The translations under genes were made by a program, and so were the position numbers. A DNA stretch of 64,000 nucleotides from the NCBI RefSeq assembly GCF_003316695.1, contig NZ_PDKB01000005.1, positions 62,001 through 126,000 on the forward strand, in the 5' to 3' direction. The stretch's first letter is position 1. Each line of letters begins with the position of its first letter. Below, piece by piece: positions 20,155-49,246 of the stretch. Source of the stretch: Aliarcobacter vitoriensis. Its GTDB lineage: Bacteria > Campylobacterota > Campylobacteria > Campylobacterales > Arcobacteraceae. Under the pieces are notes generated by a model that ran no database searches, was not told the origin of the DNA, and saw only the letters and a program-made list of their open reading frames with translations.

Positions 20155-22263
20155 ATGAATAACAAACGACAAAATGGCAGACCTCAAAATAATAGACAGC
20201 CAAATAATAATCATAATAACAACGATAACAACAACTTTTTTAATAATAATCCAATTTTAATATTTGTAATTTTTGCAATAGTTACTATATTTGCTTTTAA
20301 AGTAATTATGCCAGAAGAAGTAGTAAATGCTACACCAAACCAAAATATACAAGCCTTTGGTAGTAATAGTGGTTCAAATAAAACTATTGCTTATTCAGAG
20401 TTAAAGAAATTGATAAGTTCTGGTAAAATTGAGTATGTTGGTATTGGAAATACTCAAATTAGAGCGATAAGCAAAAATGATGGAATACAAAGAGTTACTT
20501 ATACAGCAAGAAGAGTAGTTCCTGATGAAACTTTAATTCCTGAATTAGAAAAATATAATATTGGATATGGTGGAATAAATGAAGAAAATGTTTTATCAGA
20601 TATTCTTTTTGGTTGGGTAATTCCTATTTTCTTATTCTTTGCTATTTGGATGTTCTTAGTTAAAAGAATGCAAAAATCTATGGGTGGTGGAAGTGGAGGA
20701 ATACTTGGAATAGGTTCTTCTAAAAAAATGATAAATTCTGAAAAGCCTAAAGTAAAATTTGATGATATGGCTGGAAATAAAGAGGCAAAAGAGGAAGTTC
20801 AAGAAGTTGTAGATTTCTTAAAAGCTCCTGATAGATATGTAAGACTTGGCGCTCAAATTCCAAAAGGTGTTTTACTTGTAGGACCTCCAGGTACTGGAAA
20901 AACTCTTTTAGCAAAAGCAGTAGCTGGTGAAGCTGATGTACAGTTTTTATCTGTTTCTGGTTCAGCATTTATTGAGATGTTTGTTGGAGTTGGTGCAAGT
21001 AGAGTTCGAGATTTATTTGAACAGGCAAAAAAAGTAGCACCTGCTATTATATTTATTGATGAGATAGATGCCATTGGAAAAAGTAGAGCTAGTGGTGGAC
21101 CAATGGGTGGAAATGATGAAAGAGAACAAACATTAAATCAGCTTTTAGCTGAAATGGATGGTTTTTCTACTGAATCAGCACCAGTAATTGTACTTGCTGC
21201 AACTAATAGACCAGAAGTTTTAGACCCAGCACTTTTACGACCAGGAAGATTTGATAGACAAGTTTTAGTTGATAAGCCTGATTATGAAGGAAGAATAGAG
21301 ATCTTAAATGTACATATTAAAGATGTAAAATTGGCTAAAAATGTTGATTTAAAAGAAGTTGCTAAAATGACAGCTGGTCTTGCAGGAGCTGATTTAGCAA
21401 ATATTATAAATGAAGCTGCACTTTTAGCAGGACGTGCTTCTAAAAATGAAGTTGAAGCAACTGATTTTAAAGAAGCAGTTGAAAGACAAATTGCTGGATT
21501 AGAAAAAAAGAGTAGAAGAATATCTCCAAAAGAGAGAAAAATTGTAGCTTACCATGAAAGTGGACATGCTTTAATTGCTGAAATTACAAAAGGTGCAAAA
21601 AAAGTAAATAAAGTATCAATAGTACCAAGAGGTTTAGCAGCTTTAGGATACACACTTAATACTCCTGAAGAGAACAAGTATCTTATGCAAAAACATGAAC
21701 TTATAGCTGAAGTTGATGTTCTTTTAGGTGGAAGAGCTGCAGAAGAAGTATTTATTGGTGAAATTTCAACTGGTGCTGGAAATGATTTAGAAAGAGCAAC
21801 AAATATTATAAAATCTATGGCTACTATTTATGGAATGAGTGATATTGCTGGATTAATGGTATTGGAAAGAAGAACAAACCAATTTTTAGGTGGACAAACT
21901 CAAAAAGATTTTTCAGATGCTATGGCAAAAGAACTTGATAACCATGTAAAAGATACTCTAAATGAAAGATACAAAGTTGTACTTCAAGCTTTAAGAGATA
22001 ATAGTCAATCAATAGAGGAAATGACTGCAGAACTTCTTGATATAGAAGTAATTTCAGGTGAAAGAGTAAGGGAAATCATAAAAGGAAATGGTGGAACTGT
22101 TTTTGAAGATGAAGATTTACATACAGAAGCCTTAAATAAAGAAGAAGAAAAAGAAGATGAAACTTCAAAAAGTGAAGTAAAAGAAGAGCAAAAAGATAAT
22201 ATTGAAGATAAATCTTCTGAAAATTCTCAAATAGAAGAAACTAAACCTACTGAAAACTCATAA
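20155..22263 (+). CDS. ftsH: ATP-dependent zinc metalloprotease FtsH
   Basis: FtsH is the membrane-anchored AAA+ protease for membrane and regulatory proteins. Domains in order are an Asn-rich cytoplasmic N-terminus (residues 1-36), TM1, a small periplasmic domain, TM2 near residue 155-170, the AAA module and the peptidase. The AAA module has Walker A GPPGTGKT, Walker B IIFIDEIDAIGK and the SRH ATNRPEVLDPALLRPGRFDR. The peptidase zinc site is HESGH. The C-terminal 50 residues are an acidic Glu/Lys/Ser tail. At 702 aa it is longer than E. coli FtsH, mostly through the Asn-rich head and this tail. A strong terminator follows. Confidence 0.96.
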   Translation: MNNKRQNGRPQNNRQPNNNHNNNDNNNFFNNNPILIFVIFAIVTIFAFKVIMPEEVVNATPNQNIQAFGSNSGSNKTIAYSELKKLISSGKIEYVGIGNTQIRAISKNDGIQRVTYTARRVVPDETLIPELEKYNIGYGGINEENVLSDILFGWVIPIFLFFAIWMFLVKRMQKSMGGGSGGILGIGSSKKMINSEKPKVKFDDMAGNKEAKEEVQEVVDFLKAPDRYVRLGAQIPKGVLLVGPPGTGKTLLAKAVAGEADVQFLSVSGSAFIEMFVGVGASRVRDLFEQAKKVAPAIIFIDEIDAIGKSRASGGPMGGNDEREQTLNQLLAEMDGFSTESAPVIVLAATNRPEVLDPALLRPGRFDRQVLVDKPDYEGRIEILNVHIKDVKLAKNVDLKEVAKMTAGLAGADLANIINEAALLAGRASKNEVEATDFKEAVERQIAGLEKKSRRISPKERKIVAYHESGHALIAEITKGAKKVNKVSIVPRGLAALGYTLNTPEENKYLMQKHELIAEVDVLLGGRAAEEVFIGEISTGAGNDLERATNIIKSMATIYGMSDIAGLMVLERRTNQFLGGQTQKDFSDAMAKELDNHVKDTLNERYKVVLQALRDNSQSIEEMTAELLDIEVISGERVREIIKGNGGTVFEDEDLHTEALNKEEEKEDETSKSEVKEEQKDNIEDKSSENSQIEETKPTENS

Positions 22264-22266
22264 ACT

Positions 22267-22299
22267 AATTTATTTCAAAGTTATACTTTGAAATAAATT
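22267..22299 (+). terminator. Terminator after ftsH
   Basis: A perfect 14-bp inverted repeat (AATTTATTTCAAAG / CTTTGAAATAAATT, loop TTATA) starts 4 nt after the ftsH stop. The tail is only moderately T-rich. Confidence 0.65.
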
Positions 22300-22331
22300 T
22301 ATATATATTTTACAAACGATAAAATTTTTCC

Positions 22332-22360
22332 TTGACAATTATAAAAAAATAAAATATACT
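22332..22360 (+). promoter_or_regulatory. Near-consensus sigma-70 promoter of the leu leader/leuA
   Basis: TTGACA (22332-22337), a 17-bp spacer and TATACT (22355-22360) match consensus in sequence and spacing. A full -35 is unusual in this window. Transcription would start near 22367, just upstream of the leader-peptide Shine-Dalgarno. A second TATAAT at 22530-22535, without a -35, lies 28 nt before leuA and could be a minor promoter. Confidence 0.75.
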
Positions 22361-22391
22361 TTCAGAACTATTTATAAAAAAGGAGAGTAAT

Positions 22392-22469
22392 ATGAAAATA
22401 TTTGATATTTTTAAAAGCAATTTCATTAAAAGTGTAAACTCTCTACTCCTCTTAAAACAATCACTCTAA
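22392..22469 (+). CDS. leuL: Leucine-rich leader peptide (leuA attenuation candidate)
   Basis: This 25-codon frame starts at an ATG behind AAAAGGAG and encodes MKIFDIFKSNFIKSVNSLLLL followed by KQSL. Codons 18-21 are four consecutive leucines, CTA-CTC-CTC-TTA, and the last codon is CTC. CTC is rare in neighbouring genes, which use TTA and CTT. Placement between a consensus promoter and leuA makes it a classic amino-acid-sensing leader. The Leu-codon CTCCT (22446-22450) is complementary to the leader's own AGGAG (22381-22385). No GC-rich terminator is seen before leuA, so the regulatory mechanism is uncertain. The 94 nt after the stop hold an AT-only 20-bp palindrome (22467-22486) and an A/T hairpin (22508-22529). 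Confidence 0.75.
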   Translation: MKIFDIFKSNFIKSVNSLLLLKQSL

Positions 22470-22562
22470 TTATAAATTTATAATTAAATATTCCAAAAAT
22501 CTGTTTTTCTTTTTTTATTTAAAAAAAGATATAATCAAATGTTAAATTAAAAGGTAAATATT

Positions 22563-24113
22563 ATGGATAAAAATAAAATTATTGTATTTGATACTACTTT
22601 AAGAGATGGAGAACAAAGCCCTGGTTGCTCTATGAATACTGATGAAAAGATAAAAGTTGCTTTACAATTAGAGAAATTAGGAGTTGATGTAATAGAGGCT
22701 GGTTTTGCAGCAGCTAGTCCAGGTGATTTTGATGCAGTTAGTCAAATCGCACAAATTGTTAAAAATTCAACTATCTGTTCTTTAAGTAGAGCAATAGAAA
22801 ATGATATAAAACAAGCAGGTTTAGCAGTACAAAAAGCAAATAAACATAGAATTCATACATTTATTGCAACAAGTCCTATTCATATGCAATATAAATTAAA
22901 AATGACACCAGATGAAGTTATAAAAAGAGCTGTAAGAGCTGTTGAATATGCTAAAACTTTTGTTGAAGATGTAGAGTTTTCTTGTGAAGATGCTGGAAGA
23001 AGTGAAATATCATTTTTAAAAGAAGTTATGGATGCAGTTATAAATGCAGGAGCAAAGACAATAAATTTACCAGATACTGTTGGATATAGATTACCAACAG
23101 AGTTAGCTTCTATGATAAAAGAGTTGAGTGAATATGCAAAAGATAGAGCAATAATTTCAGTTCATAATCACAATGATTTAGGATTGGCAACAGCTAATAC
23201 TTTAGCATCAGTTTTAAATGGTGCTAGACAAATAGAAGTTACTATAAATGGTTTGGGTGAACGAGCAGGAAATTCTGCTTTAGAAGAAGCTGTTATGGCT
23301 ATAAAGGTACGAAAAGATATATTTGGAGATTTATATACAAATATTAATACACCTGAACTTTATGCAACTTCAAGATTAATTGCAACAATAACTGGAGTTG
23401 AACCACAACAAAATAAGGCAATTGTTGGTAAAAATGCTTTTGCACACGAAAGTGGTATCCATCAAGATGGTGTTTTAAAACATCAAGAAACTTATGAAAT
23501 TATGAGACCTGAAGATGTAGGAGTTATCAAAGATAGCACATTGATTTTAGGAAAACATAGTGGAAGAGCAGCATTTAGAGATAAAATAGTTCAATTAGGA
23601 TTTGATAAAGTTAGTGATGATGAATTAAATGCAGCTTTTGAAAGATTTAAAGTTTTAGCAGATAAGAAAAAAGATATAACAGATGATGATGTAAGAATGT
23701 TGATAACTGATGAAGCTTTAAATCATGATAAAATTTATGAATTAGTAGGTTTACAAATAAGCGACTGTTCAAGTGGTATGCCAATGGCAGCTGTATCTAT
23801 AAAATATGAAGATAAAATCATAAAAGATGCTGGTTTAGGTGATGGAACAATGGATGCTATTTTTAAAACTATAGATAGAATCACTGGATATTCTGGAGAA
23901 TTAAAAGATTATAAGGTTATATCTGTAAGTGAAGGTAAAGACTCTTTAGCAAAAGTTACAACAAGAGTTAGCTTTGAAAATAGTCAAGCTTTTGTAGGGC
24001 ATGGATTGAGTATAGATACTATGCAAGCAACTGCAAATGCTTATATTGGAGCTTTAAATTCATACCTTTCTCAAAAAAATAGACTTACAAAAAACTGTGG
24101 ACATCAGGTATAA
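22563..24113 (+). CDS. leuA: 2-isopropylmalate synthase
   Basis: LeuA condenses acetyl-CoA and 2-oxoisovalerate in the first committed step of leucine synthesis. The N-terminal barrel shows [15 protein letters not shown] and the metal-binding [14 protein letters not shown], and [13 protein letters not shown] follows. The C-terminal LeuA regulatory domain (from about residue 390) normally mediates leucine feedback. The length of 516 aa is standard. It stands alone: leuB, leuC and leuD are not adjacent, and a terminator overlaps its stop codon. The leader peptide upstream suggests control by leucine supply. Confidence 0.95.
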
Positions 24114-24138
24114 AAAGATAGGTTAAATCCTATCTTTT
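24113..24138 (+). terminator. Terminator after leuA
   Basis: A perfect 10-bp stem (AAAAGATAGG / CCTATCTTTT) with loop TTAAAT begins at the last base of the leuA stop codon and ends in TTTT. Confidence 0.7.
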
Positions 24139-24140
24139 AA

Positions 24141-24464
24141 ATGATAATGCAAAAATATATTTTAAAAGATATAAAAAATATTTTAGAAGAGAATAAAGCG
24201 GTTTTACTATATTTTAGTGCAAATGATTGTTCTGTTTGTAAAGTTTTGAAACCGAAAATAGAGCATAGTTTACAAAATAATTTTCCTTTAATGAAGTCAA
24301 TTTTTATTGAAGATAATATGGAAATAAGTACAAATTTTACTATTTTCTCAAATCCAATGATAGTAGTTTTTTTTGAAGGAAAAGAGTTTAAAAGATATGG
24401 TAGAAATATTAGTTTATCTTTGTTTGAAGAAGATATAGAAAGATTATATAAGATGGTATTTTAA
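24141..24464 (+). CDS. Thioredoxin-fold protein with CxxC
   Basis: This small protein (107 aa) has a thioredoxin-like pattern: a strand (AVLLYFSAN), then the redox motif CSVCK, a helix, and the later cis-proline region (IFSNPMIVVFFEGKE). No signal peptide is present, so it is probably cytosolic, acting as a thiol-disulphide reductant or thiol carrier. It starts 3 nt after the leuA terminator without an obvious Shine-Dalgarno; an ATG two codons downstream (24147) is also possible. The haem-binding gene follows after 1 nt. Confidence 0.75.
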   Translation: MIMQKYILKDIKNILEENKAVLLYFSANDCSVCKVLKPKIEHSLQNNFPLMKSIFIEDNMEISTNFTIFSNPMIVVFFEGKEFKRYGRNISLSLFEEDIERLYKMVF

Positions 24465-48106: not shown

Positions 48107-49246
48107 ATGAAAAAAATTAGTTTAGCTGTGGCAAGTTTGGTGTTATCAACATCTGTTTTCGCTGATTCTTCAACTATTGATGAAGCGTTTAAAAATAGTG
48201 AAATTGAAGGTGCAATATCTCTATATGGACAAAAAGTAGAAAATAAAAAAGCACAAGACTTAGCTTATGGAAATGGAAATTTAAGATTAGGCTTTACTAC
48301 TGACTCTTTTTATGGTTTTAATGCAAAAGTTGAAGCTAAGGGGAATTTAAAATTAGGGCAACAACACGGAAAAGACTACAAAGATGGTGCTCCTTTTGAA
48401 AATAGTGCTTTATTTACACAAGCATATTTACAATATGAGTTAGACAATATTTTATCTATTAAAGCTGGAAGATATGAAGGGGAATATGAATGGCTTACTG
48501 ATTATCAACAAGGAGCAGTTGCAGAAATTTTAGCAATACCAAATACGGTTTTAGCTTTGGGATATTCAAATAAAAAATCTGAATCAGGAATAGATTTAAG
48601 TGAAGATTTTCATAGACCAGAATTAACTGATAAAGGTGTTTATTTTGTAGATATTCAAAATAATAGTTTAGATTTTGTTACATTTAATCCATACTATTAT
48701 GAAATGCCAGATTTTGGAAGATTTTATGGTTTAAAAACAGTTTTTGATACAGATTATTTTGGAATTACTGCACAATATGCGAAAAGCAATGCAGATAATA
48801 CTTGGTACTATGATGAAGAAGAAAATGAAAATTTTCAATTAGAAGATGGAAGTATAGCACATATTGAGGGTATTGTTAAAATAGAAGATTTTGAAGCATT
48901 TGCTGGGTATGCAAAAACAGATAAAGACGGTGGTGCAAATATGATAGCTTCTTTTGGAGATACTATTTCACCATTTGAAGATGGAGATTATGTTTATGAT
49001 CCTAATTCAAAAACTTGGTATATTGGAGCAAACTACTCTATTGCTGGGGTTGATTTAGGTGCTTTATATGGTGCTACAAAACATGGAATTGAAGGTGATT
49101 TAAAAACAAAAGAGCTTAACTTAAGTATTGGATATAGTATTACTGATAGTTTAGGTGTGAGTTTTATGTATGTAAATGTTGATAACAAAAACTTTGATGA
49201 AACAAATTATAACAAATATTTAGCAGCTGTTGAATATAGCTTTTAG
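48107..49246 (+). CDS. Outer-membrane porin, Opr/OprD-like
   Basis: The signal peptide MKKISLAVASLVLSTSVFA is followed by about 360 residues of alternating strand pattern ending in AVEYSF, with the C-terminal aromatic typical of outer-membrane barrels. Text such as FENSALFTQAYLQYELDNILSIKAGRYE resembles the Campylobacterota Opr/OprD-type porins. I use ATG 48107, with AAAAGGAGAC upstream (379 aa); the frame extends to 48059, but those extra residues precede the signal peptide. The substrate is unknown; the acidic loops (DEEENENFQLEDGS) suggest cation or peptide preference. Confidence 0.8.
   Translation: MKKISLAVASLVLSTSVFADSSTIDEAFKNSEIEGAISLYGQKVENKKAQDLAYGNGNLRLGFTTDSFYGFNAKVEAKGNLKLGQQHGKDYKDGAPFENSALFTQAYLQYELDNILSIKAGRYEGEYEWLTDYQQGAVAEILAIPNTVLALGYSNKKSESGIDLSEDFHRPELTDKGVYFVDIQNNSLDFVTFNPYYYEMPDFGRFYGLKTVFDTDYFGITAQYAKSNADNTWYYDEEENENFQLEDGSIAHIEGIVKIEDFEAFAGYAKTDKDGGANMIASFGDTISPFEDGDYVYDPNSKTWYIGANYSIAGVDLGALYGATKHGIEGDLKTKELNLSIGYSITDSLGVSFMYVNVDNKNFDETNYNKYLAAVEYSF

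Follow-up and report, generated by a model that had tools for sequence, protein, structure and literature searches.

The gap between ftsH (20155–22263, named by NCBIfam) and leuA (2-isopropylmalate synthase; 22563–24113, plus strand) holds a complete small unit of promoter, Shine-Dalgarno sequence and leader open reading frame (ORF), which raises the question of whether, and by which steps, this unit adjusts leuA to the supply of leucine. Here the window refers to the whole analysed stretch of 64,000 nt, which belongs to the 2.43 Mb genome of Aliarcobacter vitoriensis. LeuA was identified with NCBIfam NF002086 (750 bits, cut-off 532) and TIGR00973 (663 bits, cut-off 598.7), and its nearest named homologs by identity, among the best 80 of 418 relatives, were from an Aliarcobacter MAG and Arcobacter cryaerophilus. 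The leader promoter, P1 (22332–22360, plus strand), matches 11 of 12 consensus positions and is composed of TTGACA (22332–22337), a 17 nt spacer and TATACT (22355–22360). It is followed, on the same strand, by the Shine-Dalgarno sequence AGGAGAGT (22381–22388), which includes AGGAG (22381–22385), and by leuL (22392–22469), which encodes the 25-aa leader peptide MKIFDIFKSNFIKSVNSLLLLKQSL. Within leuL, the peptide block F-I-K-S-V-N (22422–22439, plus strand) stands directly before the Leu run CTA-CTC-CTC-TTA (22443–22454, plus strand), whose codons start at 22443, 22446, 22449 and 22452 and include CTCCT at 22446–22450; a fifth Leu codon, CTC, starts at 22464 and is followed by TAA. The Shine-Dalgarno sequence of leuA itself, AAAGG, lies at 22550–22554 on the plus strand. 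On re-reading the sequence, the coordinates that the first-pass annotation had given for the promoter, the ORF, the Leu codons, CTCCT and AGGAG all held. The leader matched no NCBIfam family, and Rfam gave no match at the gathering score; a sub-threshold Rfam match was on the minus strand at 22493–22530 (22.5 bits versus a gathering score of 55).

A leucine leader named LeuL was predicted in 2013 in C. jejuni and in most of those Epsilonproteobacteria that have leucine genes; according to the sections of that paper that deal with LeuL, the genome comparison included three Arcobacter species (PMC3847290). According to the corresponding sections of a later paper, Ribo-seq gave a signal of translation initiation at LeuL in C. 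jejuni, and detection of leuL by tBLASTn was as a rule limited to C. jejuni or related Campylobacter (PMC11955535); the C. jejuni LeuL RNA is reported to end shortly behind the stop codon (PMC3847290; PMC11955535). The leader described here resembles the LeuL of C. jejuni and other Epsilonproteobacteria in these passages, a short ORF upstream of leuA (20–35 aa) whose rare Leu codons lie close to the C-terminus and which is proposed to act in leucine attenuation (PMC3847290; PMC11955535). Among the open-licence papers listed, we found no publication on the mechanism of LeuL, and no experimental work on amino-acid attenuation in this group beyond the prediction and the Ribo-seq signal. The kind is already predicted for the phylum, that is, an ordinary leucine leader, and, as far as sequence goes, its conserved features set the Arcobacteraceae mechanism apart from a textbook attenuator. 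Selection on the peptide, an invariant last CTC, a covarying stop hairpin, a candidate second promoter (P2) and the lack of a G+C terminator across 67 leaders are added here; in the LeuL passages of the two papers, we found no mention of peptide conservation, of a terminal CUC that never varies, of a hairpin at the stop codon, of a further promoter for leuA or of Rho (PMC3847290; PMC11955535).

The 54 ORFs of the window contain 1,907 Leu codons (TTA 1014, CTT 418, TTG 248, CTA 196, CTC 22 and CTG 9), at which CTC represents 1.15%, TTA 53% and CTA 10.3%. Nearby genes had been said to use TTA and CTT almost exclusively, which goes too far, since the two together reach 75%, with TTG at 13% and CTA at 10%; CTC is indeed rare, but CTA is not. 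The rare codon typical of LeuL leaders is thus provided in leuL by CTC, with CTA and TTA also used, once each. Four consecutive leucines do not occur in the 19,619 residues of the 54 window ORFs. When both strands were examined for ATG ORFs of 12–45 codons with a Shine-Dalgarno-like sequence, six were detected, and LLLL was found solely in leuL, with LLL in one other, at 48996. Under the codon usage of the window, the probability of five Leu codons with at least three CTC and at most one TTA or CTT is about 6e-6. From these codon statistics, we consider the observation of a leader right and the frame no chance ORF. A cluster of control codons for the amino acid of the pathway, as in the leader ORFs of classical attenuators, is present in the sequence.

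We searched 104 genomes of the family with a profile built from 12 leaders (E <= 0.0032) and obtained matches in 76 of the 104 Arcobacteraceae genomes, 75 of which lie on the leuA strand, 90–139 nt upstream of leuA; conservation among relatives thus supports the leucine leader peptide proposed in the first-pass annotation. The remaining match was in G097, where no leuA match turned up. Among the 78 leuA places compared, a leader match was absent from three: in G018 the contig begins 69 nt before leuA, G005 has a diverged leader (L095), and G041 (L156) has a leuA upstream region with a TATAAT P2 motif and without a recognisable leader. Other Arcobacteraceae genera had different Leu-rich leaders, or none recognised. 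Outside the family, in Campylobacter concisus, Sulfurospirillum, Nitratiruptor and others, L-P-K-I-E-I-K/R-N precedes the Leu codons (PKIEI-type leaders), and some leuA genes outside Arcobacteraceae have no leader. The relatives used were the best 80 of 418, and 30 loci were hand-chosen among the matches listed. Identical leaders were collapsed, which left 67 distinct leaders from the Arcobacteraceae pattern, and 69 after the missed members L030 and L153 were added.

The last Leu codon of the leader (22464–22466, plus strand) is CTC in all 69 distinct Arcobacteraceae leaders, and the other Leu positions of the same leaders (n = 265) are occupied by CTT in 141, CTC in 36, CTA in 34, CTG in 32, and TTA and TTG in 11 cases each. 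CTC was absent from the 1,043 Leu codons of the 27 leuA genes counted. Since CTC is the last codon in only 6 of the 27 PKIEI-type leaders, the terminal-CTC rule is family-wide and not phylum-wide. One tRNA-Leu each with the anticodons UAG, UAA, CAA and GAG was found among the 13 of 30 tRNA loci that were typed and two additional stretches. The GAG tRNA is expected to serve both CTC and CTT, so isoacceptor identity alone fails to explain the preference for CTC at the terminal position.

Directly at the stop codon, an A/U hairpin begins (22467–22486, plus strand) with arms at 22467–22474 and 22479–22486. In sliding 45-nt windows across the leaders, the two windows with the leader stop at their centre had mean z values of −2.9 and −2.7 (51–55% of values below −2), compared with +0.5 to −0.8 in the others, save the A/T tract of P2 with −1.4 and −1.1; z was computed with a standard deviation floor of 0.5, and a lower floor gave −5.5. 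The start of the arms coincides with the stop codon or falls close to it, and their sequences vary from lineage to lineage yet remain complementary, as in TAATTATAA/TTATAATTA, TAAATTATAA/TTATAGTTTA (with one U-G pair), TAATAATAA/TTATTATTA, ATATTTAA/TTAAATAT, TCTAATT/AATTAGA and TAATAT/ATATTA. The native stem score was 6.58, versus 5.14 ± 0.14 when 3′ halves were swapped among the 61 distinct regions, and none of 2,000 swaps reached the native value; the same swap test at six other offsets gave no excess. A stem score of at least 6 was found in 45 of the 61 regions and of at least 5 in 53. The hairpin is weak (−3.3 kcal/mol in the fold of the window sequence, and 0.0 kcal/mol at the stop codon in 12 of 67 leaders), and over its full 195 nt the leader of the window is no more stable than shuffled sequence (z −0.94). 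The stem is still close to CTC in L006 and L093, where the stop codon comes two codons after CTC, which is only a hint, and L095 is a counter-example, as its best stem starts 8 nt behind.

In PKIEI-type leaders, the fold signal was weaker and lay over the Leu codons (mean z −1.2, with 41% of values below −2). In C. concisus and two relatives (L076, L079, L194 and L199; 4 of 27), the stem TGCTGCTAC/GTAGCA, which contains G and C, spans the last Leu codons and the stop codon and is followed by a T-rich tail, which makes it a candidate one-hairpin attenuator. The C. concisus stem and the PKIEI fold signal suggest that different lineages place different hairpins at one and the same site of the leader.

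That a GC-rich terminator is missing, as had been noted earlier, stood: no terminator-like site with at least 3 G-C pairs was detected in 22200–24200, and no stem of at least 3 G-C pairs with a T-rich tail in any of the 67 Arcobacteraceae leaders; yet the conserved hairpin sits at the stop codon. As an intrinsic terminator of G+C stem and U tract was looked for and not found, we withhold the label of a classical attenuator and use the family label LeuL, and as there is no terminator with G-C pairs, we favour Rho as the terminator. The rho gene is present in the genome. The tail of the leaders, taken from the N codon up to 22 nt beyond the stop, contains a mean of 11.7 C and 0–3 G in about 55 nt, but comparable C-rich, G-free stretches occur at 3 other loci of the window, and the tail thus stays a putative Rho site.

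A -35/-10 pattern was found upstream of the leader in 67 of the 69 distinct leaders. P1 is the best of 8 promoter-like sites in 22200–24200, a number not above that of shuffles (mean 12.8). The leuA-proximal promoter candidate, P2 (22503–22535, plus strand), consists of a T tract and GATATAAT (22528–22535). Its hexamer, TA[TC]AAT, starts 28–40 nt before leuA in 68 of 69 cases, against 9.4% of base-shuffled spacers, and together with the preceding T-rich stretch it fits the C. jejuni gnTAnaAT motif. According to the promoter section of PMC3847290, this motif, with no -35 box, precedes 948 of 992 C. jejuni start sites. Such a hexamer was found at −45 to −20 of leuA in 3 of the 27 PKIEI-type loci. 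Perhaps read-through from P1 counts for little if P2 is strong.

We consider that the leader very probably serves the sensing of leucine shortage, most likely as ribosome-mediated leucine attenuation with an output step that we infer. From the ORF, its codons, their conservation, the hairpin, the lack of a G+C terminator and the rho gene, we infer stalling, masking of the hairpin, termination by Rho and activity of P2. It appears fairly probable that the Arcobacteraceae LeuL is leucine-responsive and controls leuA in cis through stalling, the stop hairpin, Rho and a bypass from P2. Transcription from P1 would yield the leader RNA, of which the 25-codon ORF would be translated during transcription. 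When leucyl-tRNA is short, especially the CUC-reading tRNA, the ribosome would stall within the run of Leu codons, and most of all at the terminal CUC. With this CUC in the A site, the ribosome would extend over the stop codon and several nt downstream of it; given the sizes of ribosome footprints, the invariant CUC is well placed for covering the 5′ arm of the hairpin. The stalled ribosome would block the A/U hairpin, and transcripts from P1 would run on into leuA. In ample leucine, the ribosome would finish at UAA and depart, the hairpin would form, the C-rich, G-poor tail would be exposed and the P1 transcript would be shortened, most likely by Rho, whereas P2 would supply basal leuA expression independent of the leader. 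The effect of the hairpin on leuA output is the weak step of the proposed mechanism.

In the leu, his and trp attenuators of enterobacteria, stalling at control codons couples charged tRNA to the expression of the operon. The proposed stalling at leader control codons would likewise link charged tRNA to expression; unlike those attenuators, there is no G+C terminator here, the hairpin at the stop is a weak A/U one and the peptide is conserved outside the control codons. Regulation by an upstream ORF linked to Rho is reportedly found in the speF leader. In toiL/topAI, as given in the relevant part of PMC12121999, stalling on a leader ORF alters RNA structure and leads to premature Rho-dependent termination; toiL senses antibiotics, whereas the link to Rho here consists of the rho gene and the C-rich tail (PMC12121999).

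The first-pass annotation had expected the sequence to drift around conserved Leu codons, and we observed the opposite, with a conserved peptide and Leu codons that drift across species except for the last CTC. Before the Leu run, pN/pS was 0.22 in the 67 Arcobacteraceae leaders and 0.15 in the 27 PKIEI-type leaders, compared with 1.05–1.07 and 1.28–1.82, respectively, in shifted frames of the same DNA. The leaders had been selected partly by K-S-V-N-like or K-I-E-I residues; without the residues of the selection patterns, the values were 0.26 (69 leaders) and 0.28 (27 PKIEI-type), the frame control applying only to the full-codon figures. For L, P, K/R and N alone of the PKIEI-type leaders, pN/pS was 0.14. 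Among the 67 leaders, the block residues were present as F in 67, I in 59, K in 65, S in 67, V in 63 and N in 66, and in the Ile, Pro, Glu, Val and Phe codons the third bases vary with the residues kept. In both leader types, the block holds its position, with N one or two residues ahead of the Leu run, and PKIEIRN is kept in L043, L046 and L051 with only two Leu codons behind it. By these figures, the leader peptide before the Leu run is under purifying selection at the amino-acid level. This is unexpected where the control codons alone should matter, as simple codon sensing does not need it.

Conserved residues in the part of the nascent chain that lies in the exit tunnel are known from the arrest peptides TnaC, SpeFL and SecM, and the leaders described here are similar to them in this respect. 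It is possible, although we hold it tentatively, that LeuL is a sequence-specific arrest peptide, in which the F-I-K-S-V-N or L-P-K-I-E-I-K/R-N nascent chain would work from within the exit tunnel. Stalling would then require the peptide in addition to starved Leu codons, and would be set by leucine or leucyl-tRNA. The low pN/pS of the leader codons, which persists without the selection-pattern residues, the position of the block in both leader types and the retention of PKIEIRN despite two Leu codons only all agree with such an arrest. All of these are observations of conservation, a free functional peptide would give the same pattern, and the leader sequences of other families are unrelated. 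Moreover, most leaders keep several Leu control codons, which suggests tRNA sensing, unlike TnaC, SpeFL and SecM. Rather doubtful is a combination of both, in which LeuL would form a family of sequence-specific arrest peptides for leucine status whose tunnel block holds the ribosome at the terminal CUC and masks the A/U hairpin, with Rho reading the outcome and the second promoter acting as a bypass. Evolution preserves the peptide, one codon adjacent to the stop codon and a very small hairpin there, whereas in the textbook view control codons alone matter. If true, this would be a natural system that separates tRNA sensing from peptide-dependent arrest, and an attenuator without a G+C terminator that can be tested by small, clear mutations.

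The conservation of the P2 motif, which equals that of P1 (68 and 67 of 69), its retention in G041 without a leader and the conserved peptide would also fit a trans-acting small RNA or small protein, namely the leader RNA or a free LeuL peptide, in which case P2 would drive leuA. We find this unlikely, as no leader match was found away from leuA in the 104 genomes at E <= 0.0032, save the one in G097 without a found leuA. Leader matches confined to leuA point to action in cis.

The Leu codons had further been proposed to switch the translation of the leader by pairing with its own Shine-Dalgarno sequence, through AGGAG and CTCCT. The two are indeed complementary; the fold of the window sequence predicts pairing of GGAGAGU with ACUCUC(C), the predicted duplex is strong (mean −10.4 kcal/mol) and GGAGAG is found in 64 of 67 leaders. 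A selected switch is, on the other hand, quite improbable: synonymous codon redraws gave duplexes of equal strength (−10.1 ± 0.3 kcal/mol), though this null drew on the codon pool of the leaders themselves, which pairing could have shaped, and CTCCT occurs in only 14 of 67 leaders. The base after GAGAG and the base before the last CTC showed no consistent covariation, being T-A in 27 of the 67 leaders, A-T in 11, T-T in 10, T-C in 9, G-A in 3, A-C in 2, and A-A and C-C in one each, with 3 leaders without GAGAG. From the earlier interpretation as a whole, we retain the leucine leader peptide and the lack of a G+C terminator, and abandon the sequence drift and the Shine-Dalgarno switch.

The rare Leu cluster before leuA would suit an attenuator with an intrinsic terminator as well, either with the classical G+C stem or, here, with a weak A/U stem and a T-rich tail. 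A/U stems of at least 6 pairs, with no demand for G-C pairs, that are followed by 5 T in 8 nt were found in 23 of 67 leaders (6 of the 12 listed are the stop-codon hairpin and the other 6 are at the T tract of P2), which keeps a weak A/U terminator conceivable in place of Rho, and a segment of 8 nt with 5 or 6 T, between +15 and +38 of the stop codon, likewise in 23 of 67; the TGCTGCTAC/GTAGCA stem of 4 of the 27 PKIEI-type leaders points in the same direction. With no G-C-paired site at the locus or in the 67 leaders, and with 44 of 67 lacking even the A/U stem with a T-rich tail, we regard this as very unlikely.

In the window, the stop codon of the leader lies in the perfect palindrome TAATTATAAATTTATAATTA, but we give hardly any credit to its being a DNA operator for a dimeric repressor, which is disfavoured by lineage-specific arms that stay complementary through compensatory changes and by U-G pairs (L085, L086 and L006) that a DNA palindrome does not need.

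On the minus strand, a sigma-70-like site (TTGGAA-16-TATAAT; 22469–22496 of the window) overlaps this palindrome, and such sites are no commoner in the region than in shuffles. Other leuA genes were preceded by other sequences. Upstream of leuA in L188, L190, L195 and L196, whose genomes appear to belong to another, Helicobacter-like family, the leader is of another kind, which contains K-N-L-L-T and ends in P-L-G ahead of the stop. A third leader type, with a common KKIYIFIYKLSLLNLL or a near variant, was observed in L183, L187, L192 and L186 from another family. In L059, L060, L061, L066 and L067, none of the Leu-rich leader kinds described above was found before leuA; they share a common block, AATTAACCCCTTTTTAAT...ATAATC, within about 70 nt before leuA, which is perhaps another regulatory site.
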